A stretch of 42,873 nucleotides of DNA from a virus. The notes beneath the pieces are model-generated. The model was not told the origin of the DNA. It was given only the letters and a program-made list of their open reading frames with translations, and searched no databases. The stretch's first letter is position 1; each line of letters begins with the position of its first letter. Shown here piece after piece: positions 19,282-41,395 of the stretch. The stretch lies in IMG/VR virus record IMGVR_UViG_3300009011_000023, positions 1 to 42,873 of that record, one strand, 5' to 3'. The translations under genes were made by a program, and so were the position numbers.

Positions 19282-20385
19282 ATGGCATTAGATAAAGATA
19301 AAATTAAAGAAAGCTTAACAGAAGAAGATATAAAGCTCATTCTCACTGATTTAGGTAGTGATTTAAAATTAGCAGACAAAATGATATTCCAAACAGTTTG
19401 TCATAGTGGGAGTAAGCATAAATTACACTACTATGAAGACACTAAGCAATTTCATTGTTACACAGACTGTGGAGATAATTTAGATGTATATGAGCTAACA
19501 ATTAGAGCTAAAAAACACCAAGGGATAGAATTAACATTTCCAGATGCAGTTAAATACATAGCTAGTTTGACAGGTAAGTATTATAGTGCTGATACAGCAT
19601 TGGATAAGGTAAATAGTCACTTAATTAGTGACTGGGAATTTATCAATAGGTACAAAAAGAAGAAGGAAATAAATAAAGAGTTAAAAGTTATACATAATCA
19701 TAATGTGTTTCAACTATTCTCTCCTTATGGACATATCTCATGGCTAAATGAAGGCATTAGTCATGAGACAATGGAGAGATTTAACATAAGTTATTACTTA
19801 AGAGATGATAGAATCGTCATTCCTCACTATGATATGAATAATAATCTTGTAGGTATACGTGGAAGGGCGATGAGAAAAGAAGACGAGGATTCAGGTAGAA
19901 AATATATGCCTTTATTGGTGGGTAAAACACAGTATAATCATCAGACCATGCTAAATCTATATGGACTACATAAGACGAAAGATGCAATAAAAAGGTTAAA
20001 AAAAATAGCTTTGTTCGAAAGTGAGAAGTCCGTTTTGATGTGTGAAGACTTCTATGGAGAAGATAACTTTTCAACGGCAATATGTGGCAGCACATTGTCA
20101 AGATTCCATGTGCAAATCATCTTGTCTTTAGAGGTGGAAGAAGTGTTCCTGTGCATGGATAAGATGTACCACGATCCAGACAGCAAAGAAGCTGAGATTT
20201 ACGCTAAAAAAATTATGAAATTTGCAAACATGCTCTCACCATATTGCACAGTTTATGTACTATGGGATGATTTTGGATGGATAGATTATCGTGAAGCTCC
20301 TTGTGATAGAGGGAAGAAAGTTTTAGAAGATTTAATGAAAGCAAAGTATGAAGTGAAAACTATAAATGAAGGGGCGATTGTGTGA
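19282..20385 (+). CDS. DnaG-like primase
   Basis: 367 residues, ATG at 19282 after AAGGGGTGAG. An N-terminal zinc motif: Cys40 and His41/His46, then Cys59 and Cys63 (HCYTDCG), a variant of CHC2. A catalytic part of the DnaG type follows (residues 170-200, RIVIPHYDMNNNLVGIRGRA) with a TOPRIM-like Glu in ALFESEKSVLMCEDFYG near residue 246. It is shorter than bacterial DnaG (about 600) because the helicase-interaction domain is absent. Matches SPbeta yorJ. It synthesises RNA primers for the DnaE-like polymerase. The next gene's start overlaps the stop. Confidence 0.82.
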   Translation: MALDKDKIKESLTEEDIKLILTDLGSDLKLADKMIFQTVCHSGSKHKLHYYEDTKQFHCYTDCGDNLDVYELTIRAKKHQGIELTFPDAVKYIASLTGKYYSADTALDKVNSHLISDWEFINRYKKKKEINKELKVIHNHNVFQLFSPYGHISWLNEGISHETMERFNISYYLRDDRIVIPHYDMNNNLVGIRGRAMRKEDEDSGRKYMPLLVGKTQYNHQTMLNLYGLHKTKDAIKRLKKIALFESEKSVLMCEDFYGEDNFSTAICGSTLSRFHVQIILSLEVEEVFLCMDKMYHDPDSKEAEIYAKKIMKFANMLSPYCTVYVLWDDFGWIDYREAPCDRGKKVLEDLMKAKYEVKTINEGAIV

Positions 20386-22103
20386 GATATAAGTTGATCG
20401 GAGAGAACGATTTTTTTGTTAACCCTGTTCAGACAATATTGAAAAATAGAGGGATTGAAGACATGGAATCCTTCTTAAACTTAGATGCAAGTGTTACAGA
20501 CCATTGGAGTAAATTAAAAAATATTAAGGGAGCTGCTGAATGTCTAATTGAGCATGTAAAACGTAAGTCTCAAGTTTTCATTCAGGTTGATCCTGACTGT
20601 GATGGCTATTGCTCTAGTGCCATCCTAATTAACTATCTAAAGAAAGTTTTCCCTGATGTAAATATTACATGGAGGCTGCAAGAAGGTAAGGAGCACGGTG
20701 TATTTGTTGACAAAGTTCCTGAAGATACAGATTTAGTAATCATTCCTGACGCTGGCTCAAATCAGTATGATGAACATAAGGCACTAAAGGAAAAAGGAAT
20801 AGATGTGCTTGTATTAGATCACCATGAGACTGATAAGGAATCTGAATATGCAATAGTAGTAAATAATCAACTGTCACCTGAATATGGCAGTAAGGCTATG
20901 ACTGGAGCAGGTATCATACTTGAGTTTTGTAGAGCGCTAGATGATAAGTTAGGCGTTAAGTATGCAGAAGATTATTCAGATTTAGCTGCTATTGGAATTA
21001 TTGGTGATATGGCTGATATGCAAGAACTAGGAACAAGATATAATGCTTTGCAGGGGATCAAAGAAGCTAAGAATCCCCTGTATAAAGCCTTATTAGAAAA
21101 GCAGAATCACTCTATGGGGGGAGAAGTAAATATTATCAACTTAACCTTCTATATTGTTCCCTTGATTAATGCAGTAGTACGTTCCGGCACACAAGAGGAA
21201 AAAGAACAAATGATGAGAGCTTTTTTAGAATCAGACGAAGAGATATTCTATAAGTATCGTGACATTGAAAGATATGAACCTATTGCAATTAACACTGCTC
21301 GTATGATGGGGAATATAAAAGCTCGACAAGGCAGAGCAGTTAAAAAAGGAGTAGAAATTCTAGAGGAGCGCATTGAACAAAGAAATTTACTTAATAACAA
21401 AATTTTAATTGTTAATGTGGCAGGGATTATCGATAAGGATTTTACCGGTTTAGTAGCTAATCAAGTTTCAAACAAATACAAAAGACCAACACTATTAATA
21501 AGACCTGATGCAAAAGGAGAGTGTAAGGGTTCAGCTCGTGGGTATGACAAAGGACATATTAAAGATTTCAAAGAGTTTTTAAACGAAACAGAATTGTTTA
21601 ACTTTTGTGAAGGTCACTCGAACGCTTTAGGGGTGGGTATTGATAGTGATAAGTTGATCGAGGCTAACAACTTATTTAATGAGTTACTGAAAGATGTGGA
21701 AGTGGATTTAAATACATATGAAGTAGACTTTGTTGTTCCTTGTAAACAATTGACTTCTGAACTGGTATTAGAAATACATAAGCATAGAGATGTGTGGAGT
21801 CGCAATGTCGAGGAACCATTATTGGCTATAAAAGATATAAAAGTTAAAGCTAAGGATATCAGCTTCTTTAAGGGAAAGAAAGCAGGTAAGACAGGAACTC
21901 TTAAATTTAAAGCTAATGGGGTAGATGTGGTTAAATTCTACTGTCGAGATGAAGAGTATGAGGAACATTTCAAGGGCAAAGACTTCAATATTGATGTTAT
22001 AGGCAAGTGTGACTTAAATGAATACAAAGGTAAGAAGTTTGCTCAGATCAAGATTGAGGATTATGAAATTACAGAAATAAAAGAAGAGGAATTAATATTT
22101 TAG
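20382..22103 (+). CDS. RecJ-like single-strand-specific exonuclease
   Basis: 573 residues, GTG at 20382 overlapping the primase stop (GTGTGA). DHH-family motifs: VDPDCDG at 69-75 (Asp70, Asp72, Asp74), then VIIPDAG near 119 and LVLDHHETD at 143-151. The C-terminal part (DHHA1 and OB domain) has a GSARG segment and a GEGHSNALGVGI-type glycine motif. Length matches RecJ. SPbeta YorK is annotated as this enzyme. It would process single-stranded ends during replication or recombination. Confidence 0.88.
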   Translation: MRYKLIGENDFFVNPVQTILKNRGIEDMESFLNLDASVTDHWSKLKNIKGAAECLIEHVKRKSQVFIQVDPDCDGYCSSAILINYLKKVFPDVNITWRLQEGKEHGVFVDKVPEDTDLVIIPDAGSNQYDEHKALKEKGIDVLVLDHHETDKESEYAIVVNNQLSPEYGSKAMTGAGIILEFCRALDDKLGVKYAEDYSDLAAIGIIGDMADMQELGTRYNALQGIKEAKNPLYKALLEKQNHSMGGEVNIINLTFYIVPLINAVVRSGTQEEKEQMMRAFLESDEEIFYKYRDIERYEPIAINTARMMGNIKARQGRAVKKGVEILEERIEQRNLLNNKILIVNVAGIIDKDFTGLVANQVSNKYKRPTLLIRPDAKGECKGSARGYDKGHIKDFKEFLNETELFNFCEGHSNALGVGIDSDKLIEANNLFNELLKDVEVDLNTYEVDFVVPCKQLTSELVLEIHKHRDVWSRNVEEPLLAIKDIKVKAKDISFFKGKKAGKTGTLKFKANGVDVVKFYCRDEEYEEHFKGKDFNIDVIGKCDLNEYKGKKFAQIKIEDYEITEIKEEELIF

Positions 22104-22127
22104 TTTACATATTTGATTCCATATAGT

Positions 22128-22141
22128 AAAATTAATAAATA
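22128..22141 (+). repeat. SPbeta-type repeat copy before the polymerase gene
   Basis: AAATTAATAAATAA, ending directly before the GAAAGGAG ribosome site of the polymerase. Confidence 0.6.
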
Positions 22142-22157
22142 AGAAAGGAGTGTTTAT

Positions 22158-23564
22158 ATGATTGGTTGTCATTGTCATACTGATGTATCAAACATTAGAC
22201 TACTAGACAGCACAAACAAAGTAAAAGACTTGCTAAAATGTGCTGTGGAGATGGATTATAAGGGAATAGCAATTACAGATCACGAGGTTTTGTCAGCCCA
22301 TGTTCAAGCTATTAAAACAGTTAGAGAAATGAAGAAAAAGAATATCATGCCTGAAGACTTCAAGTTAATCTTAGGGAATGAAATTTATTTGGTTGATTCC
22401 TTAGAGGAAGTGAGAGATAACTATAAATCAGGTGTAACAAAATTTCCTCATTTCTTGCTTCTTGCTAAGGATGCAATAGGACACGAACAGCTAAGAATAC
22501 TTTCTAGTAAAGCATGGGAAAACTCCTTTTACACAGGAGCGATGGAACGTGTGCCAACTGTTAAGGAAGATTTGGAAGAGGTAGTAAAAGGGAACAGAGG
22601 ACATTTAATTGCAAGTTCAGCTTGTTTAGGTAGTGAAATTAATATATATCTACTGAAAATAAAAGAGGCTGAGATAGAGGATAATCAAGAAATTATTAAA
22701 GAGTACAAACAGAAGATACATAATTTTGTCACTTGGTGTATCGATGTGTTTGGTAAAGATAATTTTTTTATTGAGTTGCAACCAGCTTTGTCTGATGAAC
22801 AAGTCTATTGCAATGAAAAATTAATTGATATCTCAAATGGATATGAATTAAAACGTATTGTAACAACTGATGCGCATTTTCTCAGACCAGAAGACAGAGA
22901 AATACACAAAGCCTTTCTAAATTCCAAGGAAGGAGAGAGAGAGGTTGATGATTTTTATCAAGCTTGCTTTGTTCAAAGTGTAGAAGAAATCAAAAAACAT
23001 ATGATTGACTATATTGACATAGAAATCATTGAAGATGCCATTCGCAACACCGAGTTAATTGGAGAAGTGATTGAAGACTATACAATTGAGCACGATCCTA
23101 TTATTCCAAAAATGGAGCTTCCTGAGTTTGAGTTAAGACATACATTTAAGCCAGCATATACTCAGTACGGGTACATAAAAAAAATGGCTTATTCAGACAA
23201 TGAGCAAGATAGATACTTATTAAAGTTAATTGAAGATGGATTTGATGAGAAACTTAGAAAACCTTCATTAACTAAAGAAGGTTTTCACATTGTCTTAAAA
23301 AGACTAAATGACGAGCTAGGAGAGCTTCACAAGATTAGCCAAACTCTCAGTCAGTCGATGCCTTCCTATTACATCACAGTACGAGAAATCATCAATTTAA
23401 TTTGGGATGATGATTGTGGGGGAAACAGTTTAGCTGGTGTAGCACGAGGAAGTGCAGCAGGATACTTAGTCAATTATTTAATTGATATTACACAAGTTAA
23501 CCCAATCGAGTACAATCTACCCCATTGGCGACACTTGACCGCAGAAAGACCTGAGCTGCCCGAT
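22158..23564 (+). CDS. DNA polymerase III alpha (DnaE-like), exon 1
   Basis: 469 codons, ATG at 22158 after AAAGGAG. Begins MIGCHCHTDVSN, the PHP domain (His4, His6). GNEIYLVD and TTDAHFLRPED near residues 75 and 236 are further PHP elements. The polymerase palm starts near ARGSAAGYL, and the exon stops at LPD, so the last codon is the first catalytic Asp (469). A frameshift gene or pseudogene is excluded by the group I intron that follows. Joined to 24510-27029 it encodes 1308 residues, close to SPbeta YorL (about 1305). Confidence 0.9.
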
Positions 23565-24509
23565 TATTATTAATAGTCGTCTATAGTGGCAACATTATAG
23601 ATTATGAGCTGGTGAACCTGTAATTGCAGGGTGTGGCTACTTAGCTGCTAACGGTGAAAATCTAAGTTAAGTAATTAATATGACAACACCGTGCCAAGTT
23701 CTTGTTTGTGACATCTGAAAGGAGATGTTACATGGAAACTTTAGCGAATATATACAAACTAACCAATTTGAAAAATGGTCGCATCTACATAGGGCAGACA
23801 ACTTTAGAACTACAAGAAAGAATTTGTAACCATCTAAAAAGAATGAGAGACGAAGATGACCAAAGACTTTTATACATAGATATGAGAGAGATAGGAATAG
23901 AAAACTTTTCTTCGGAAGTGATAGACCAATGTTTTGAAAGGCATAAATTTATAGTAGAAGAACATTGGTATAATCACTATTTTGATAAAGGTTTCCCTAT
24001 GTATGACATCAAAAAAGGAGCCAAACACTCTAAGAATACTCGACAAAGACTTTCTCAAGCTAGACAGACAAATAATTTTGATTACTCATCGGATGCATTC
24101 AAAAGCAAAATGAGTGAAAAAACTACAGGTGAGAGAAATGGAATGTTTGGCAAAAAAGGAGAAGGTGCTGTCAATGGACGAATGGTAGTAGCCTATGACG
24201 AACAAGGAGAAACAATCCATAGCTTTGTGTCAGTTGGAACAGCATTGGATTTCTTGAAAATCAAAGGTCATACGGGTCTAAATAAAGCATGTCGCACAGG
24301 TGAGAAATATAAAGGGTATTACTGGAAAAAAGAATGGATAGATCGCTAACTATCACAAACAAGAAAAGGTGTAACGACTAGTCGAAAGACGTACTGTAGA
24401 GGTGAAATTCCTTTATGGGAAGTGCCAGCCATCCTAATGGGATGAAGAGATAGTCTACTCCGTCTTCTCTATGAAGAGTTAAAGTATTCCGAAAGGAACG
24501 GTATAAAGG
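23565..24509 (+). mobile_element. Group I intron in the polymerase gene
   Basis: 945 bases. Exon joining restores the frame exactly as ...LPD|VDIDTEGSKR..., which matches the PDxDxD motif of C-family polymerases. The 5' splice site follows a U that forms a U-G pair in a plausible P1: CGATTA (23561-23566) with TAGTCG (23574-23579). The intron ends in G. Core elements: GTGCCAAG near 23692 and the P7 pair GACTA (24376-24380) with TAGTC (24451-24455). Splice sites could be shifted by one base (PDFDIDT instead of PDVDIDT) with the same length. Carries a GIY-YIG gene. Confidence 0.88.
23732..24349 (+). CDS. GIY-YIG homing endonuclease in the polymerase intron
   Basis: 205 residues. ATG at 23732 with AAAGGAGATG upstream, while an in-frame ATG at 23702 lacks a site. 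The GIY-YIG core is NIYKL (6-10) and GRIYIGQTT (16-24), with the Arg helix (ERICNHLKR) and a following Glu. The C-terminal region has an NGMFGKKG element (NUMOD3 type) and a VVAYDEQGETIHSF repeat (NUMOD1 type) for DNA recognition. Encoded in the P6-P7 loop region of the intron, between GTGCCAAG and GACTA. Its role is intron homing into intronless polymerase genes. Confidence 0.88.
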   Translation: METLANIYKLTNLKNGRIYIGQTTLELQERICNHLKRMRDEDDQRLLYIDMREIGIENFSSEVIDQCFERHKFIVEEHWYNHYFDKGFPMYDIKKGAKHSKNTRQRLSQARQTNNFDYSSDAFKSKMSEKTTGERNGMFGKKGEGAVNGRMVVAYDEQGETIHSFVSVGTALDFLKIKGHTGLNKACRTGEKYKGYYWKKEWIDR

Positions 24510-27029
24510 GTCGATATTGATACAGAAGGGTCAAAACGAGAGCAAATTCTAAGAGCGCTAAAAAGAAAATTTGGAGAATATCAAGTTTTACAGATTGCCA
24601 CTTTCGGAACGGAAGGCTCAAAGTCAGCGCTACAAACAGCTTGCCGAGGCTTGGGCATTGACAGTGATGTAAGTTTGTACCTAAGTGGCATGATTCCGTT
24701 TGAACGTGGTCAGAACTGGTCGCTGAAAGATTGTTTCTTTGGAGATGAAGAGAAAGAAAGGAAGCCAATTAAGGAATTAATTAATGAGATTGAGAAATAC
24801 CCAAAATTAAAAGAAACCGCCTTAAAGATAGAGAATACAATTAACAAACGGTCTAGCCATGCAGCCGGAATTATTATTTACAATGAACACTACTCTAAAT
24901 ATAACGCAATGATGAAAACACCAAAAGGAGCAAACATCACCCAGTTCAATATGGGAGATTCGGAGGCATTAGGTGGGGTAAAATATGACCTGTTAACAAT
25001 TGAAGCCCTAGACAAGATACGTGTTACATTAGATTATCTACTCGAAGATGGAGAAATTGAATGGCAAGGCAATTTAAAAGATACCTACAATAAGTATCTT
25101 CATCCTGACGTACTGACCTATGATGACGAAAAGTTGTGGGAAATGATCGGAGAAGGAAATGTTATGGATTTATTTCAATTCTCTACAGAAGTAGGTCATC
25201 AATCAGTTATAAAAGTTAAACCAGAAAACTTACTTGAGGCAGCAGTAACAAACTCTTTAATGAGGCTTATGGCTGATGGGGATGAGCAGCCTGTAGACAC
25301 TTACGTTAAATTTAAAAAGAATATCGACTTATGGTACGATGAAATGGAAAATTACGGATTGTCTGAACAGGAAATGAAGGTAATGGAAAAATACTTATTG
25401 GAAATTTACGGAGTTGCAGATACACAAGAAGTAGTTATGCAAATGGTTATGGATGAAAAAATTTCAAATTTCACTTTAACTGAGTCCAACAAGTTCCGTA
25501 AAGGTATAGCGAAAAAGATTGAGAAAGAATTAAAAAAGGCTCAAGAATTGTTTTATTCAAAGGGAAGGGAAATAGGAACAAGTGAAAACTTGCTTAATTA
25601 TGTATGGAACGTGCAATGTAAACGACAGTTTGGATATAGTTTCTCTCTGCTTCACACATTAGCGTACAGTGTAATAGCTCTTCAAGAGTTAAATCTGAAT
25701 TACCACTACAATCCTTTGTACTGGAATACAGCGTGTTTAACTGTCAACAGTGGAGGAGTTGAAGATCAATCAACTGATAGCGAAGAGGACAAGAAAAATA
25801 AATCAACTAACTACGGTAAAGTAGCTTCTGCTATCGGAAACATTCGCCAAAGAGGGATTAAAGTTGACTTACCTTATGTGAATAAGGCGAACTTTGGCTT
25901 TAAGCCGGACATTGAAAATGATTCAATTGTCTTTGGTTTAAAAGGGATAAATGGCATTGGAGATGATGCTGTTCACTTGCTAATACAAAATAGACCTTAC
26001 AGCTCTTTTGATGATTTTATTGAAAAAATCCTTAAAACAAGTTTGTTGAAAAAGGGGCAAATCCTACAGCTAATAAAAGCCGGTTGCTTTGATGAATTTG
26101 GTGAACGTGAGGAAATCATGCGAGAGTTTATCAAATATATCTATGAACCTAAGAAGAAGCTTACAACAGCAAACATCAACATGCTATATGAAAATGGACT
26201 GATTCCTGAGAAGTTGAGTCTAGAGTTGCGCTTCTATAGATATAAAGCATACGTATCTAAGCGAGTTTATAAAACTGTTCAGAAACCAAAAGATAAGCTA
26301 TTGATATTAGATGATATATCTAATCGCTTCTTGATGGAACACTTTACAGACGACTTGATTATTGACTTTGTTGATGGGAAATCAATCGTCTCTGAGAAGA
26401 AGTTAAGTAAGGAGATAGATAAAAAAATAGTTAAGCTTAAAGAATGGTTAGCTGAACAAGAAACATTAGATGCTCTAAATAAGTGCCTCCTAAACAACGA
26501 ATTTTTAGCAAATGCAAGTGGAACATTAAGCAAATGGGAAATGGATAGTCTGTCATTTTACTATCATGAGCATGAACTAGCACATGTTGACAATGAGAAA
26601 TATGGAATTGTAAACTTCAGCGATATGCCGGAAGAACCTAAGTCCATTGGTTCTTACAAATGGAGAGGAAGAGACATTGATCAATTTGATATTGTCCGAA
26701 TTGCTGGAACTGTTCTTGATAAAGATAAAAATAAACACACAGTAACCTTATTAACTGATAATGGTGTAGCATTGGTGAAATTCTACGGTGGAGCTTTCTC
26801 ACACTATAATAAACAAATTTCTGAGGTTCAATCCAACGGTAAGAAGAAAGTATTAGAAAGTTCATGGTTTACCAGAGGAAATAAACTCCTCATTGCAGGG
26901 TTTAGACGTGGAAATAGATTCATGCCCAAAGTTTATAAAGACTCCATCTACAATCATACTGTTGCATTAATCAATGAGGTCTATGAGGATGGAAGTTTAT
27001 CTTTACAAACAGAACGAGTACGTAATTAG
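24510..27029 (+). CDS. DNA polymerase III alpha (DnaE-like), exon 2
   Basis: Continues residues 470-1308 with VDIDTEGSKR (second catalytic Asp471). The third palm Asp is in GGVKYDLLTIEALDKI near 628. The fingers and a helix-hairpin-helix-like segment (FGLKGINGIGDDAV) near 950 are present, and an OB-type region near the C-terminus (FDIVRIAGTVL) follows. So the enzyme is complete: PHP, palm, thumb, fingers and C-terminal domains. No proofreading exonuclease domain is seen. It should replicate phage DNA with the helicase and primase above. Confidence 0.9.
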   Translation, partial: VDIDTEGSKREQILRALKRKFGEYQVLQIATFGTEGSKSALQTACRGLGIDSDVSLYLSGMIPFERGQNWSLKDCFFGDEEKERKPIKELINEIEKYPKLKETALKIENTINKRSSHAAGIIIYNEHYSKYNAMMKTPKGANITQFNMGDSEALGGVKYDLLTIEALDKIRVTLDYLLEDGEIEWQGNLKDTYNKYLHPDVLTYDDEKLWEMIGEGNVMDLFQFSTEVGHQSVIKVKPENLLEAAVTNSLMRLMADGDEQPVDTYVKFKKNIDLWYDEMENYGLSEQEMKVMEKYLLEIYGVADTQEVVMQMVMDEKISNFTLTESNKFRKGIAKKIEKELKKAQELFYSKGREIGTSENLLNYVWNVQCKRQFGYSFSLLHTLAYSVIALQELNLNYHYNPLYWNTACLTVNSGGVEDQSTDSEEDKKNKSTNYGKVASAIGNIRQRGIKVDLPYVNKANFGFKPDIENDSIVFGLKGINGIGDDAVHLLIQNRPYSSFDDFIEKILKTSLLKKGQILQLIKAGCFDEFGEREEIMREFIKYIYEPKKKLTTANINMLYENGLIPEKLSLELRFYRYKAYVSKRVYKTVQKPKDKLLILDDISNRFLMEHFTDDLIIDFVDGKSIVSEKKLSKEIDKKIVKLKEWLAEQETLDALNKCLLNNEFLANASGTLSKWEMDSLSFYYHEHELAHVDNEKYGIVNFSDMPEEPKSIGSYKWRGRDIDQFDIVRIAGTVLDKDKNKHTVTLLTDNGVALVKFYGGAFSHYNKQISEVQSNGKKKVLESSWFTRGNKLLIAGFRRGNRFMPKVYKDSIYNHTVALINEVYEDGSLSLQTERVRN

Positions 27030-27042
27030 GAAGGATGATTCT

Positions 27043-27843
27043 TTGTATATAAAACAGATCATTACATATGTGAGGCATAATAAAAAACAGACACTAATAG
27101 ACATTAAAAACTTTTTATTTAAAATTTCATTTTTAGTCTTGCTATTGTTCACGATAGGTAGTAAAATTAATATAAATCAACAAGAGTTACAGATTAAGAG
27201 GTTGAAAGAAGATCAAAAATCATACATAAAGAAAGAAAAAGTTAAAATTGAAGGTTATAATAGTGAAATTAATAAATATAATGTAAAAATAAAGAGTGTA
27301 GAAAAAGCTAATCAAGACTTATCAAACAAGAATAAGCAGCTAGAAGATGATAAAGAGAAGCTAAATTCACAAATTGATAAGCTTAAAGAAGAAAACTCAA
27401 ATTTCAAGGCAAAACGGAAGGAGGTGAATCAGAAAAACCCCGTCAGTAGTGAGTTTCAGAAGGATGATATTACTGTAAAAGACGAGTTTTATTCAAAAGA
27501 TGAAATTAAGAAAGAAAAAGTTGAAAGTGAAACAAACGATACATATTTAGGGGAATACGAGATTACGTTTTACACAAATAACAAAAGTTCTACCGGAAAG
27601 AGTGTCGGTGATCCTGATTACGGAATTACATCTTCTGGAGCTAGGACAAAGGCAGGTGTTACAATTGCTTGCCCTCCCAGTATTCCAAGTGGCACACAGT
27701 TAGAAATTGAGGGAATAGGCATCAGGAAATGTGAAGATGTCGGAGGCGCAATAAAAGGCAATCGTTTAGACATATATGTTACATCTGATGCAGAAGCAAT
27801 GAGATTAGGAAGACAACACAAGAAAGTATATAAAGTAAATTAA
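27043..27843 (+). CDS. Membrane-anchored 3D-domain protein (YorM-like)
   Basis: 266 residues from TTG 27043, preceded by AGGAAGG, whereas the frame's ATG at 26974 lies within the polymerase gene without a site. A membrane span (residues about 24-39, FKISFLVLLLFTIG) precedes a Lys/Glu-rich coiled coil (residues 45-120). The C-terminal 3D domain has ITSSGARTKAG and then CEDVGGAIKGNRLDIYV, with the Asp residues that give the family its name. 3D domains occur in peptidoglycan hydrolases and in YocH-type proteins. Matches the place of SPbeta yorM. Likely faces the cell wall. Confidence 0.8.
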   Translation: MYIKQIITYVRHNKKQTLIDIKNFLFKISFLVLLLFTIGSKININQQELQIKRLKEDQKSYIKKEKVKIEGYNSEINKYNVKIKSVEKANQDLSNKNKQLEDDKEKLNSQIDKLKEENSNFKAKRKEVNQKNPVSSEFQKDDITVKDEFYSKDEIKKEKVESETNDTYLGEYEITFYTNNKSSTGKSVGDPDYGITSSGARTKAGVTIACPPSIPSGTQLEIEGIGIRKCEDVGGAIKGNRLDIYVTSDAEAMRLGRQHKKVYKVN

Positions 27844-27858
27844 CAAAGGGGAGATTAG

Positions 27859-28608
27859 ATGATTAAAGTCACACCTTTAGGAGTCAACGGTGCATTTACA
27901 AAGTATTATCATAACAACTTTGTATTCGAATTAGGTAGTAGAAAGCTGCTTATAGACGCTGGCACAACATTACGAAATAGCTTGCATGATGCAGGATTTA
28001 AAGAAACAGATATCACAGACATCTTTATTACACATTTACATAGCGATCATGTGGGAGGAGTTGAAGAGTTTGCTCAGAAATGTAAGTGGATTTATAGTCA
28101 CAAGCCTAATCTTTGGATTCGATCCGATATGGTAGATGACCTTTATGACATTCTTGAAAAAGGATTGTGTACAGATGGTTTAGGAATCCATGATTACTTC
28201 AAAGTTTGCTTATTGGATTCATGGAGAGGTGTTGGTGGGTTCAACATTGAGAGTCACAAGCTAGAGTTCATCAAAACTGATGAAATGCATTGTAAGGGGA
28301 TGCGCTCAACAGCTTTAAAATTTTACGACTTAAACGGATACAATGTTCTATACTCATCTGATATTAAAAATTTAAAAGACAGTGGATTGATTGAACATGT
28401 CAATTACAGTACGAAAGTAATCTTTCAAGACTGTTCACTAGTTCCGAATAATGTTCACTCTACAGTTGAAGAAGTCATTGAATATTATGGTGAGGAAAAT
28501 AAAAATAAAATTTACGCTATGCATTATCAAGATGACATTGACGCTTTGGAGTTTGATGAAAAGTATGGAATTAGATTCATGATTAAAGGTCGAGACTTAC
28601 TTATCTAA
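27859..28608 (+). CDS. MBL-fold hydrolase resembling Apyc1 cyclic-nucleotide nuclease
   Basis: 249 residues, ATG at 27859 after AAAGGGGAG. Metal motif THLHSDHVGG (His59, His61, Asp63, His64), with further ligands in DEMHCKG, YSSDIKN and YAMHYQDD. The pattern GAFTKYYHNNFVFE, IDAGTTLRNSLHDAGF and VIFQDCSL, and the roughly 250-residue size, match what I recall of Apyc1. That is a phage MBL enzyme from Bacillus phages that cleaves cyclic pyrimidine signals of Pycsar (and other cyclic mononucleotides). It could instead be a general MBL nuclease related to RNase Z. It stands amid replication genes, not in an obvious defence island. Confidence 0.7.
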   Translation: MIKVTPLGVNGAFTKYYHNNFVFELGSRKLLIDAGTTLRNSLHDAGFKETDITDIFITHLHSDHVGGVEEFAQKCKWIYSHKPNLWIRSDMVDDLYDILEKGLCTDGLGIHDYFKVCLLDSWRGVGGFNIESHKLEFIKTDEMHCKGMRSTALKFYDLNGYNVLYSSDIKNLKDSGLIEHVNYSTKVIFQDCSLVPNNVHSTVEEVIEYYGEENKNKIYAMHYQDDIDALEFDEKYGIRFMIKGRDLLI

Positions 28609-28626
28609 TAAAAGGAGCTGCTAATA

Positions 28627-28812
28627 ATGAACTTATCCAAAGAAGATAGGAAAGCATTAATCAATTACATAATTGAGCATCATCCAGTTTATAAGAATCA
28701 CGTTAAATTAGAAACACAACAACTAATCATCAAGGAATTGAAAACTAAATCAAATGAAATGGTTACAGATTTATTTTATCAAGCTGGTGGTAAAGAATTG
28801 TATAGTAGTTAA
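28627..28812 (+). CDS. Small helical protein of unknown function
   Basis: 61 residues, ATG at 28627 after AAAGGAG. All-helical and moderately basic. It follows the MBL-fold gene by 18 bases and is followed at once by a repeat copy and the kinase gene. No domain recognised. Confidence 0.65.
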   Translation: MNLSKEDRKALINYIIEHHPVYKNHVKLETQQLIIKELKTKSNEMVTDLFYQAGGKELYSS

Positions 28813-28835: not shown

Positions 28836-29342
28836 TTGACAGTATTTATTCTTGAAGGTTGCGATGCAGTAGGAAAGAGCACACTAAGCACAGCATTGTC
28901 ACAAAAACTTAATATGTCAGTTTATCATGGATCATCATTTGAAGCATCTAAGAGTAATAACGAAGTTTTATTCAATAGCTTTCTAAAATACACTGATATG
29001 GATGATATTATTATTGACCGATACACATATTCAAACCTTGTCTATGCAACGCTTTACAAGGACTATTCAATCATTACATACGAACAACTTGAGCGAATTG
29101 AAGGATTAATTAAGGATAAAGCAGTATTAGTTTACCTCTATGCAGATTCAGAAACAATTAAAAATCGTTTAAGCAATAGAGGTGATGATTATGTTAAGGC
29201 TAATATGATTGATAGTATCTTATCTGAATATGAAAAAGTATTAAGTAAGTCACAACTATTCAAAATGAAATTTGACACTAACAAATTAACAACAGAACAA
29301 ATTGTAAAGAAATTGGCTGGACTACATGAAGTCATCAAATAA
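28836..29342 (+). CDS. Deoxynucleoside monophosphate kinase
   Basis: 168 residues, TTG at 28836 with TAGGAG upstream. A P-loop at residues 7-16 (EGCDAVGKST) and a DR motif (IIDRYTYSN) near residue 55 are the thymidylate-kinase-like signature, with a lid-like RLSNRGDDY near 110. It is shorter than bacterial Tmk (about 210) and fits SPbeta YorR-type kinases. It raises dNMPs to dNDPs for the dNTP pool, complementing ribonucleotide reductase. Substrate base not determinable. Confidence 0.78.
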   Translation: MTVFILEGCDAVGKSTLSTALSQKLNMSVYHGSSFEASKSNNEVLFNSFLKYTDMDDIIIDRYTYSNLVYATLYKDYSIITYEQLERIEGLIKDKAVLVYLYADSETIKNRLSNRGDDYVKANMIDSILSEYEKVLSKSQLFKMKFDTNKLTTEQIVKKLAGLHEVIK

Positions 29343-39429: not shown

Positions 39430-40227
39430 ATGACATTAATCACAAAAGACAGAAAATCACATGTTCAAAAATCAGAGTTTGACGAGAATCGTTTTCGTAA
39501 ATTTATCAACGAGATTGTAACGGACTCTGATCGAGAATATGATAAAAATACAATTGAGAATTTAAAAACGAAATTAATTGAAGAAATCACAACACGACAC
39601 AAGATTGAAGCTGACAAACTATTTGACTTAATTATTCGTGAGGTAAATGACTTAATCAGTCCTAAAACTCCAGAGTATACTTACTTATCAGCTTCAGCTT
39701 TACGAAGAAAATTATACAAAAAAGTATCTAAAGAGCGTGGATTTGATTATAAGAAGGGTTACGGTGACTACTTACCATTTGTCCGAATGATGACAGAAAA
39801 AGGGTTGTACTCAGATGACATCCTTAACTCTTACTCAGAAGAAGAAATCGCTGAGGCAGGAAGTTACATTGATAAGGCAAAAGATAAGCTGTTCTCATAT
39901 GCAGGACTTCATCTTTTAAAAGAAATCCATTTAAAGAAAGATTATGATGGAACACCATTAGAACTAATGCAAGAGCGATTCCTTTCAATTGCTATGTATC
40001 TAATGAAAGATGAAGAAAAGTCGCAAAGAATGAGCTTAGTAAAAGAAGCATACTGGGCGCAAAGCAATCATTACATTGGAAATAGCACACCCACAATGAT
40101 GAACTCTGCAAGTCCAAACGGAACTTTATCATCTTGTCATATCGTAACATTCTCCGATGATTTAGATGGAATTATGAATGGTTTAAGTCAGGTAGCTAAG
40201 TTCAGCCAAAATGGTGCTGGATTGGGT
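39430..40227 (+). CDS. Ribonucleotide reductase large subunit (class I), exon 1
   Basis: 266 codons, ATG at 39430 after AGAGGAG. N-terminal ATP-cone-like region (residues about 5-100), then the start of the catalytic domain with a redox Cys in GTLSSCHIVTF near residue 236. The exon ends at the codon for the second Gly of GAGLG. The frame would run on into the intron and stop at 40240 without splicing. Joined to exon 2 it gives GAGLG|IYGGFLRSKGSW, the same spacing as GAGIG...RALGS in E. coli NrdA. It reduces ribonucleotides for phage DNA synthesis. Confidence 0.9.
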
Positions 40228-41395
40228 GAGAGAGCCGCTTAATAAACGCCCAATTAAAACCCTGTGAACCCAAGCCAAAGGGGTGTACAGTAATTATACT
40301 GTGCTAACGAGGAAACCCTAACGTATAGACGAGGGCAATCTCGTGCCAAGCTAAATTGATTAATCGAATTTAAAAGGAGGTGAGTAAATGCAACTGGTAT
40401 ACAAGATAACAAATAAAATTAACAATAAATTCTATATAGGGAGAACTAAGAATTTTAAAGAAAGAAAAAGAAACCATATTAGACTTTTAACTAATAATAA
40501 GCATCACTGCATCCATCTTCAAAATGCATGGAATAAGTATGGGGAAGAGAATTTCTTATTTGAACAATTTAAAATTTTTAACACAGGATTAGATCACGAT
40601 GATTTATATCTAGTTAAAAGCTTAGAGCAACATTTTTTAGATAGCTACATGATAAGCGAACATTTATACAATACATCCAAGAACACGGAGAATTTCTACC
40701 TGATTGGTAAAGAGCATCCTAATTTTAAATCCCATCCTAAAGAATGGGTAGGAGAAGAAGGGTACTTGAAACTTCAGCAACATTACCAAAGAGATTTTAG
40801 TGGAGAAAACAACTCTTTCTATGGTAAAGCCCATTCGGATGAAACAAAAGAAATATTGAGAGTTAAATGTCCTAATTATGGTGAAAAGAATGGTTTTTAT
40901 GGTAGAACTCACACTGATGAGTCTAAGAAACTGATGTCTGAAAAGGCTAAACTGAAGACAGGTGATAAAAATTCTTTCTTTGGAAAAACTCACTCAGATG
41001 AATCTAGAGATAAAATATCTAGAGGGAATAAAGGAAAGATAAAGGGAATACCTAAAAGTGAGGAACATAGAAGGAAAATGAGTTTAAATAATTCACAGTC
41101 TATAGGGATTAGCATTGATGGAGTTAAATATCGAAGTTTCAACGAGGCAGCAAGAATACTTGGAATTGGTAGAAAAGTTGTTTCAAAGAGAGTTCATAGT
41201 GATGACCCTATGTATTCAAACTATATAATTATAAAATAAAACAATCAATTTAGAAGGTGTAACGACTATCGAAAGCACGTCTTTGACGGAAGTGAGTAGA
41301 GTAGGTTAGAAATTGGCACTAACCGAAGCGCAGGGATAAACAAGAAATTGTTTATATGAAATAGTCTAGTCCTATAGGAAACTTTAGGGTAACTG
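40228..41395 (+). mobile_element. Group I intron in the ribonucleotide reductase gene
   Basis: 1168 bases. P1 is clear: exon ATTGGGT (40221-40227) pairs with GCCCAAT (40248-40254), with the U-G pair at the splice site. Exon 2 begins ATTTAT, whose TTTAT can pair with ATAAA beside P1 (P10). Intron ends in G41395. P7 is GACTA (41264-41268) with TAGTC (41362-41366), and GTGCCAAG near 40343 is shared with the polymerase intron. Carries a GIY-YIG gene. Confidence 0.9.
40388..41239 (+). CDS. GIY-YIG homing endonuclease with NUMOD repeats
   Basis: 283 residues, ATG at 40388 with GGAGGTGAG. GIY-YIG motif VYKITN then NKFYIGRT (residues 4-20), with the Arg-rich helix ERKRNHIR. The C-terminal half has a series of NUMOD3-like units (NNSFYGKAHSDE, KNGFYGRTHTDE, KNSFFGKTHSDE, GIPKSEEHRRK) and a final NUMOD1-like part with an HTH (FNEAARILGIGRKVV). 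Intron-encoded homing enzyme, larger than the one in the polymerase intron because of the extra repeats. Confidence 0.88.
   Translation: MQLVYKITNKINNKFYIGRTKNFKERKRNHIRLLTNNKHHCIHLQNAWNKYGEENFLFEQFKIFNTGLDHDDLYLVKSLEQHFLDSYMISEHLYNTSKNTENFYLIGKEHPNFKSHPKEWVGEEGYLKLQQHYQRDFSGENNSFYGKAHSDETKEILRVKCPNYGEKNGFYGRTHTDESKKLMSEKAKLKTGDKNSFFGKTHSDESRDKISRGNKGKIKGIPKSEEHRRKMSLNNSQSIGISIDGVKYRSFNEAARILGIGRKVVSKRVHSDDPMYSNYIIIK

Follow-up and report, generated by a model that had tools for sequence, protein, structure and literature searches.

The locus considered here is an open reading frame (ORF) at positions 27859 to 28608, on the plus strand, of a 42,873-base IMG/VR record; the whole stretch is referred to as the window. 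It raises the question of whether an SPbeta-like phage carries an Apyc1-type enzyme and uses it against host Pycsar defense, as an earlier note made from the sequence alone had proposed on account of the size of the product, its THLHSDHVGG site, and several flanking patterns. We favor the reading, with a probability of about 0.72, that this gene encodes an Apyc1-family class II cNMP phosphodiesterase that the phage uses as an anti-Pycsar factor. The protein is of a known kind, and the interest lies in the Pycsar-linked branch to which it belongs.

Gene and family assignment

The ORF begins with ATG and encodes 249 amino acids. It is preceded by a ribosome-binding site, AAAGGGGAG (27845 to 27853, plus strand), which was read directly in the sequence, begins immediately after the stop codon of the preceding gene, and ends ahead of the ATG at 27859. 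THLHSDHVGG corresponds to residues 58 to 67, and the DNA pattern of this motif had a single match in the window (at 28033), compared with 0 expected from 100 shuffles. The same protein, at 100% identity, is present in a second IMG/VR record (L002), which is 99.97% alike across 15.6 kb, and a different phage (L003) has a relative with 83% amino acid identity. For the window and L003 genes, the NG86 method gave a dN of 0.102 and a dS of 1.794 (dN/dS of about 0.06), and YN00 gave 0.112 and 1.243 (about 0.09). Given the ribosome-binding site, the relatives in L002 and L003, the low dN/dS, and the presence of all metal ligands of the metallo-beta-lactamase (MBL) site, the ORF is a real gene under strong purifying selection, and the coordinates and site described in the earlier note are confirmed.

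The top Pfam model for the protein was Anti-Pycsar_Apyc1 (PF23023), which scored 93.6 bits against a cutoff of 50 over residues 5 to 229 of 249; general lactamase models gave 50.6 and 32.4 bits. Among PDB sequences, the best matches were all Apyc1 entries (7t28, E value of 3.8e-28; 7u2s, 6.6e-25; and 7u2r, 4e-24), followed by other MBLs at 2e-6 and weaker. An AlphaFold model, for which the input was an alignment of 40 sequences (39 hand-chosen from 119 loci, plus the window protein), had a mean pLDDT of 95.9. When this predicted model was used in Foldseek, ranks 1 to 4 were all Apyc1 chains; in VIA-align, ranks 1 to 3 were the Paenibacillus Apyc1 proteins 7U2R and 7U2S (Z scores of 32.4 and 32.1), which are the closest folds, and SBSphiJ Apyc1 7T28 (Z score of 30.3, 33% identity), with the next family at 26.2 and the rest lower. 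Profile, predicted fold, and metal ligands thus support placing the window protein in the Apyc1 family, and it is at this family level that the resemblance noticed earlier holds.

Homologues are called "ribonuclease Z/BN" in several phage records, and RNase Z has the MBL fold, a like metal site, and the same HxHxDH motif, so the gene could in principle encode a phage RNase Z that processes tRNA 3' ends. We regard this as highly improbable. The NCBIfam model TIGR02651 gave 41.7 bits against a cutoff of 292.95 and covered residues 17 to 76 only, the window protein has 249 residues versus about 302 to 307 in RNase Z models, and true RNase Z proteins (L144 and L136) branched outside all Apyc1 rows in the tree described below. 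In the profile and structure comparison that the earlier note had suggested, Apyc1 was closest and the RNase Z match was local, the best profile being Anti-Pycsar_Apyc1 rather than RNase Z or another MBL clan. No tRNA genes were found in the window, and on the basis of profile, tree, and this lack of tRNA context, the RNase Z identity was rejected.

The distinction between Apyc1 and Bacillus subtilis YhfI (6KNS) matters because YhfI prefers cAMP and cGMP, according to Hobbs et al. (2022, PMC9117128). YhfI shares the MBL fold and HxHxDH motif with the window protein but is only 16% identical to it in a structural alignment, with a Z score of 26.1 and a phmmer E value of 0.0078. A YhfI ortholog (L164, which matches 6KNS at 3.9e-59) has DHVADLG at the position of the DHxGGxEE of Apyc1 proteins, and in the tree it fell together with RNase Z, apart from every Apyc1 row; since the branches are long, this placement is support rather than proof. 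The tree and the profile together led us to reject a YhfI-type cAMP/cGMP phosphodiesterase. A PADLOC match of the window protein to LmuA was also discarded, being weak and confined to the shared metal motif.

Active site and proposed reaction

The HxHxDH metal-binding motif (H59, H61, D63, and H64; 28033 to 28050) and residues H144 (28288 to 28290), D168 (28360 to 28362), and H222 (28522 to 28524), all encoded on the plus strand, are invariant in the 40 aligned sequences. We take H144, D168 (bridging), and H222 to be metal ligands from knowledge of the family. E69 (28063 to 28065, plus strand), which is kept in at least 90% of the aligned sequences, is the equivalent of E74 of SBSphiJ Apyc1 in the alignments, with the correspondence set by residue counting in the SBSphiJ sequence; a catalytic role for E74 is described by Hobbs et al. 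(2022, PMC9117128). One clade relative, that of Priestia, has S in place of E69, which counts against the main reading.

The same source describes Apyc1 as a homodimer that hydrolyzes cCMP and cUMP as well as cAMP and cGMP and blocks Pycsar, with a second catalytic residue, Y112 of SBSphiJ Apyc1, coming from the opposing protomer and an additional loop, absent from YhfI, that extends into the pocket for the nucleotide (Hobbs et al. 2022, PMC9117128). Y112 aligns to a gap in a length-variable loop of the window protein, where CTDGLGIH has no tyrosine. The missing counterpart counts against the main reading, though this is tempered by the solved proteins 7U2R and 7U2S, which also have no tyrosine at this position, so that Y112 is not a family-wide residue. 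In the region of the pocket loop, the window protein is of Paenibacillus-like length, as judged by alignment. Compared with the Apyc1 proteins of Bacillus phages SBSphiJ and BSP38 (7T28; Hobbs et al. 2022, PMC9117128), the window protein is alike in its PF23023 match, size, seven ligands, and E74 equivalent; it differs in belonging to a separate clade, in its shorter loop without a Y112 counterpart, and in its carrier, which is SPbeta-like where theirs are Herelleviridae.

From its fold, its ligands, and the cyclase-linked relatives described below, the window protein likely acts on cyclic mononucleotides. Residues H59, H61, D63, H64, H144, D168, and H222 would bind two metal ions, which would orient the cyclic phosphate of 3',5'-cNMPs so that the ring could be opened to yield the 5'-NMP. 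During infection or prophage residence, the enzyme would remove the cCMP or cUMP made by host Pycsar cyclases, leaving PycTM or PycTIR effectors untriggered. We infer catalysis, the pyrimidine range, and the anti-Pycsar role; that the enzyme would shield the phage from Pycsar is the explanation that we prefer. Phages with apyc1 deleted were left to future work by Hobbs et al. (2022, PMC9117128).

A clade with Pycsar-adjacent members

In a tree of 56 hand-chosen rows, the window protein fell inside a 27-row clade (support, 99/98). Outside this clade are the SBSphiJ/BSP38 group and a Paenibacillus group; the latter includes 7U2R and 7U2S, whose loop lengths are similar to that of the window protein. 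The clade is made up of three viral rows together with genes of Brevibacillus, Ureibacillus, Lysinibacillus, Kurthia, Sporomusa, and related genomes and of a Priestia plasmid. Its motif context (PLGVGGAFT..YHNN, DAGTT, and FQD) differs from that of known Apyc1 proteins, and we know of no member that has been tested experimentally.

Two clade genes lie beside Pycsar operons. On the Priestia aryabhattai plasmid NZ_CP128553.1 (L181, 4213 to 9741), a clade gene whose product is 39% identical to the window protein stands head-to-head with a PycTM gene, the two starts being about 150 bases apart. The effector was recognized by PF18967 (45.3 bits versus 27.2) and by the PADLOC PycTM model (1.7e-29), and after it the operon has two tandem unknown proteins that are related to each other, a protein annotated as an adenylate/guanylate cyclase that bears a TPR-S domain, and an RyR protein. 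SIR2, PLD, and TIR genes are also present in this plasmid region. On the G025 chromosome (L227, 4003 to 9753), a clade gene faces a 137-amino-acid ORF, a cyclase, a PycTM gene (PF18967, 49.1 bits), and the pair of unknown proteins seen in Priestia. The gene order is rearranged relative to Priestia and the clade enzymes are 43% identical, which makes these two separate loci. The Pfam cyclase model fell below its cutoff on these Pycsar cyclases (a third of the kind, in L282, scored 18.1 versus 21.9), and the term "cyclase" therefore rests on NCBI annotation for Priestia and on homology for G025, whose protein is 34% identical to that of Priestia.

The Pycsar link was counted over 101 bacterial and plasmid loci, from which 4 duplicates were dropped to leave 97. 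Clade loci, defined by a score of more than 200 bits with the clade profile, numbered 26, and 21 of them were flanked by 6 kb or more in each direction; the other 71, mostly of Paenibacillaceae, include L020, which is a clade member in the tree but scored just under 200 bits. A PycTM gene lay within 9 kb at 2 of the 26 clade loci versus none of the 71 other Apyc1-like loci. PycTM is rare, and by simple arithmetic chance alone would give about 0.003 such cases in 26 loci, a figure to be used as a guide only, since defense genes cluster and the Priestia case had been noticed before counting. Among 398 Bacilli genomes, 36 had a P0001 match and 6 had PycTM; both were present in 2, on different contigs. 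A survey of 261 genomes of one family found the clade gene in 24, PycTM in 6, and both in 2, adjacent in G025 and apart in G246. From the effector side, we examined stretches reaching as far as 9 kb to the left and right of 12 distinct PycTM genes, some of them shortened by contig ends, and only 1 of the 12 had an Apyc1-like gene nearby; the MBL match at another of the PycTM loci (L284) was weak, at 23.9 bits, and the Priestia locus, found from the enzyme side, is outside this count. Our literature search returned no report that places an Apyc1-like gene inside or next to a Pycsar operon; the search was incomplete, and such a report may exist.

Evidence against an anti-Pycsar role also comes from the same clade. 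Most of its members are chromosomal, have a conserved nucleotide-metabolism neighborhood, and do not adjoin Pycsar; in Ureibacillus and Lysinibacillus (L011, L013 to L016, L018, and L019), the genes around the clade gene encode a LOG-family protein, a pair of deoxynucleoside kinases, and a deaminase. In Brevibacillus dissolubilis (L010, 5996 to 9928), its head-to-head partner is a CHASE2-guanylate cyclase (114.3 bits versus 21.9) rather than a Pycsar gene, and a GAF-HD protein closely follows the clade gene, an arrangement that looks like a complete cyclic-nucleotide signaling unit. The apyc1-like genes of the Herelleviridae phages examined adjoin ribonucleotide reductase genes, and the survey of Tesson (2024), as related in PMC12774641, makes the case that Apyc1 originated as a housekeeping enzyme of bacteria. 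All of this would fit a general, host-derived phosphodiesterase that acts on cAMP and cGMP or recycles cyclic nucleotides during replication or lysogeny. We consider this unlikely as an account of the phage gene, given the two Pycsar-adjacent members inside the clade of the window protein and the scarcity of an obvious cAMP circuit to serve: of 25 genomes with a clade gene, only one, G006, had a recognizable class III cyclase (PF00211). G006 has three such cyclases, one of which adjoins the clade gene (C22, 277869 versus 275657); among 34 Paenibacillus-type genomes, 5 had PF00211 cyclases, in no case adjacent to the Apyc1-like gene. The distinct clade and its different motif context would also suit an enzyme that degrades the signal of some other cyclic-nucleotide or nucleotide-derived defense system instead of cCMP or cUMP, but this is improbable, as fold and ligands best match Apyc1 and it is PycTM effectors that clade members neighbor.

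For the anti-Pycsar reading, the Pycsar-adjacent relatives strengthen the guess at function and suggest where the phage may have got its gene. The ring nucleases of type III CRISPR systems offer an analogy, which we draw ourselves: signal-degrading enzymes serve there as off-switches of the host in their cellular form and as anti-defense factors in their viral form, of which phage examples are named by Hobbs et al. (2022, PMC9117128). The folds and signals are unrelated to those considered here. Tentatively, and as a possibility toward which we lean less than halfway, the clade may include built-in off-switches of Pycsar operons, that is, signal-degrading enzymes placed divergently beside a cyclase and PycTM, one of which SPbeta-like and other phages might have captured as an anti-Pycsar factor. 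The enzyme of the window would then possibly derive from such a bacterial off-switch, and its gene would be the phage-borne counterpart, in an SPbeta-like setting, of the divergent genes at Pycsar operons.

An accessory slot in an SPbeta-like genome

The window has the make-up of an SPbeta-like, temperate-type phage. Its replication block (20382 to 27029, plus strand) includes RecJ (20382 to 22103) and two DNA polymerase pieces (22158 to 23573 and 24651 to 27029), the C-terminal one of which is 65% identical to YorL of SPbeta and phi3T, and the order Sak4, DnaB, primase, RecJ, polymerase, and YorM is that of SPBc2. With these genes upstream, the description of the locus as a replication-region gene was right. 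The left neighbor (26974 to 27843, plus strand) encodes a yorM-like 3D-domain protein of 289 amino acids (phrog_6631 and Pfam 3D). To the right lie a 61-amino-acid ORF, taken from the ORF list (28627 to 28812, plus strand), and a yorR-like thymidylate/deoxynucleoside kinase of 168 amino acids (28836 to 29342, plus strand), identified by profile matches and SPBc2 order. Being the SPbeta gene yorR, this kinase was dropped as a hint to function.

In SPBc2 and phi3T, the yorM-yorR interval is occupied by yorN, yorO, yorP, and yorQ; in the window, it is filled by the apyc1-like gene and the 61-amino-acid ORF. L003 has a different replication block, and here the only DNA that it has in common with the window is 27845 to 28664, which corresponds to the gene and its edges. 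A 47% relative (L090) is found in yet another setting. In Staphylococcus phage SPbeta-like 2 (L004, 14989 to 15726), an MBL relative of 24.8% identity, labeled ribonuclease Z, comes right after RecJ; its presence in an SPbeta-type replication block suggests repeated acquisition. Since the settings differ among the SPBc2/phi3T slot, L003, L090, and the Staphylococcus phage, the apyc1-like gene, on comparative evidence, behaves as a movable accessory gene. Relatives were present in 66 of 50,697 phage records, none above 60% identity, with 34.6% at the best place, and a megablast search of positions 20000 to 42873 of the window against phages gave no match.

The DNA polymerase gene itself (22158 to 27029) is divided into two ORFs that flank a GIY-YIG homing endonuclease ORF (23702 to 24349). 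The split probably reflects an intron; no Rfam family reached its threshold in a search for a group I intron at this position. Elsewhere in the window, at 39430 to 41239, a piece of a ribonucleotide reductase large subunit is followed by another GIY-YIG homing endonuclease ORF.
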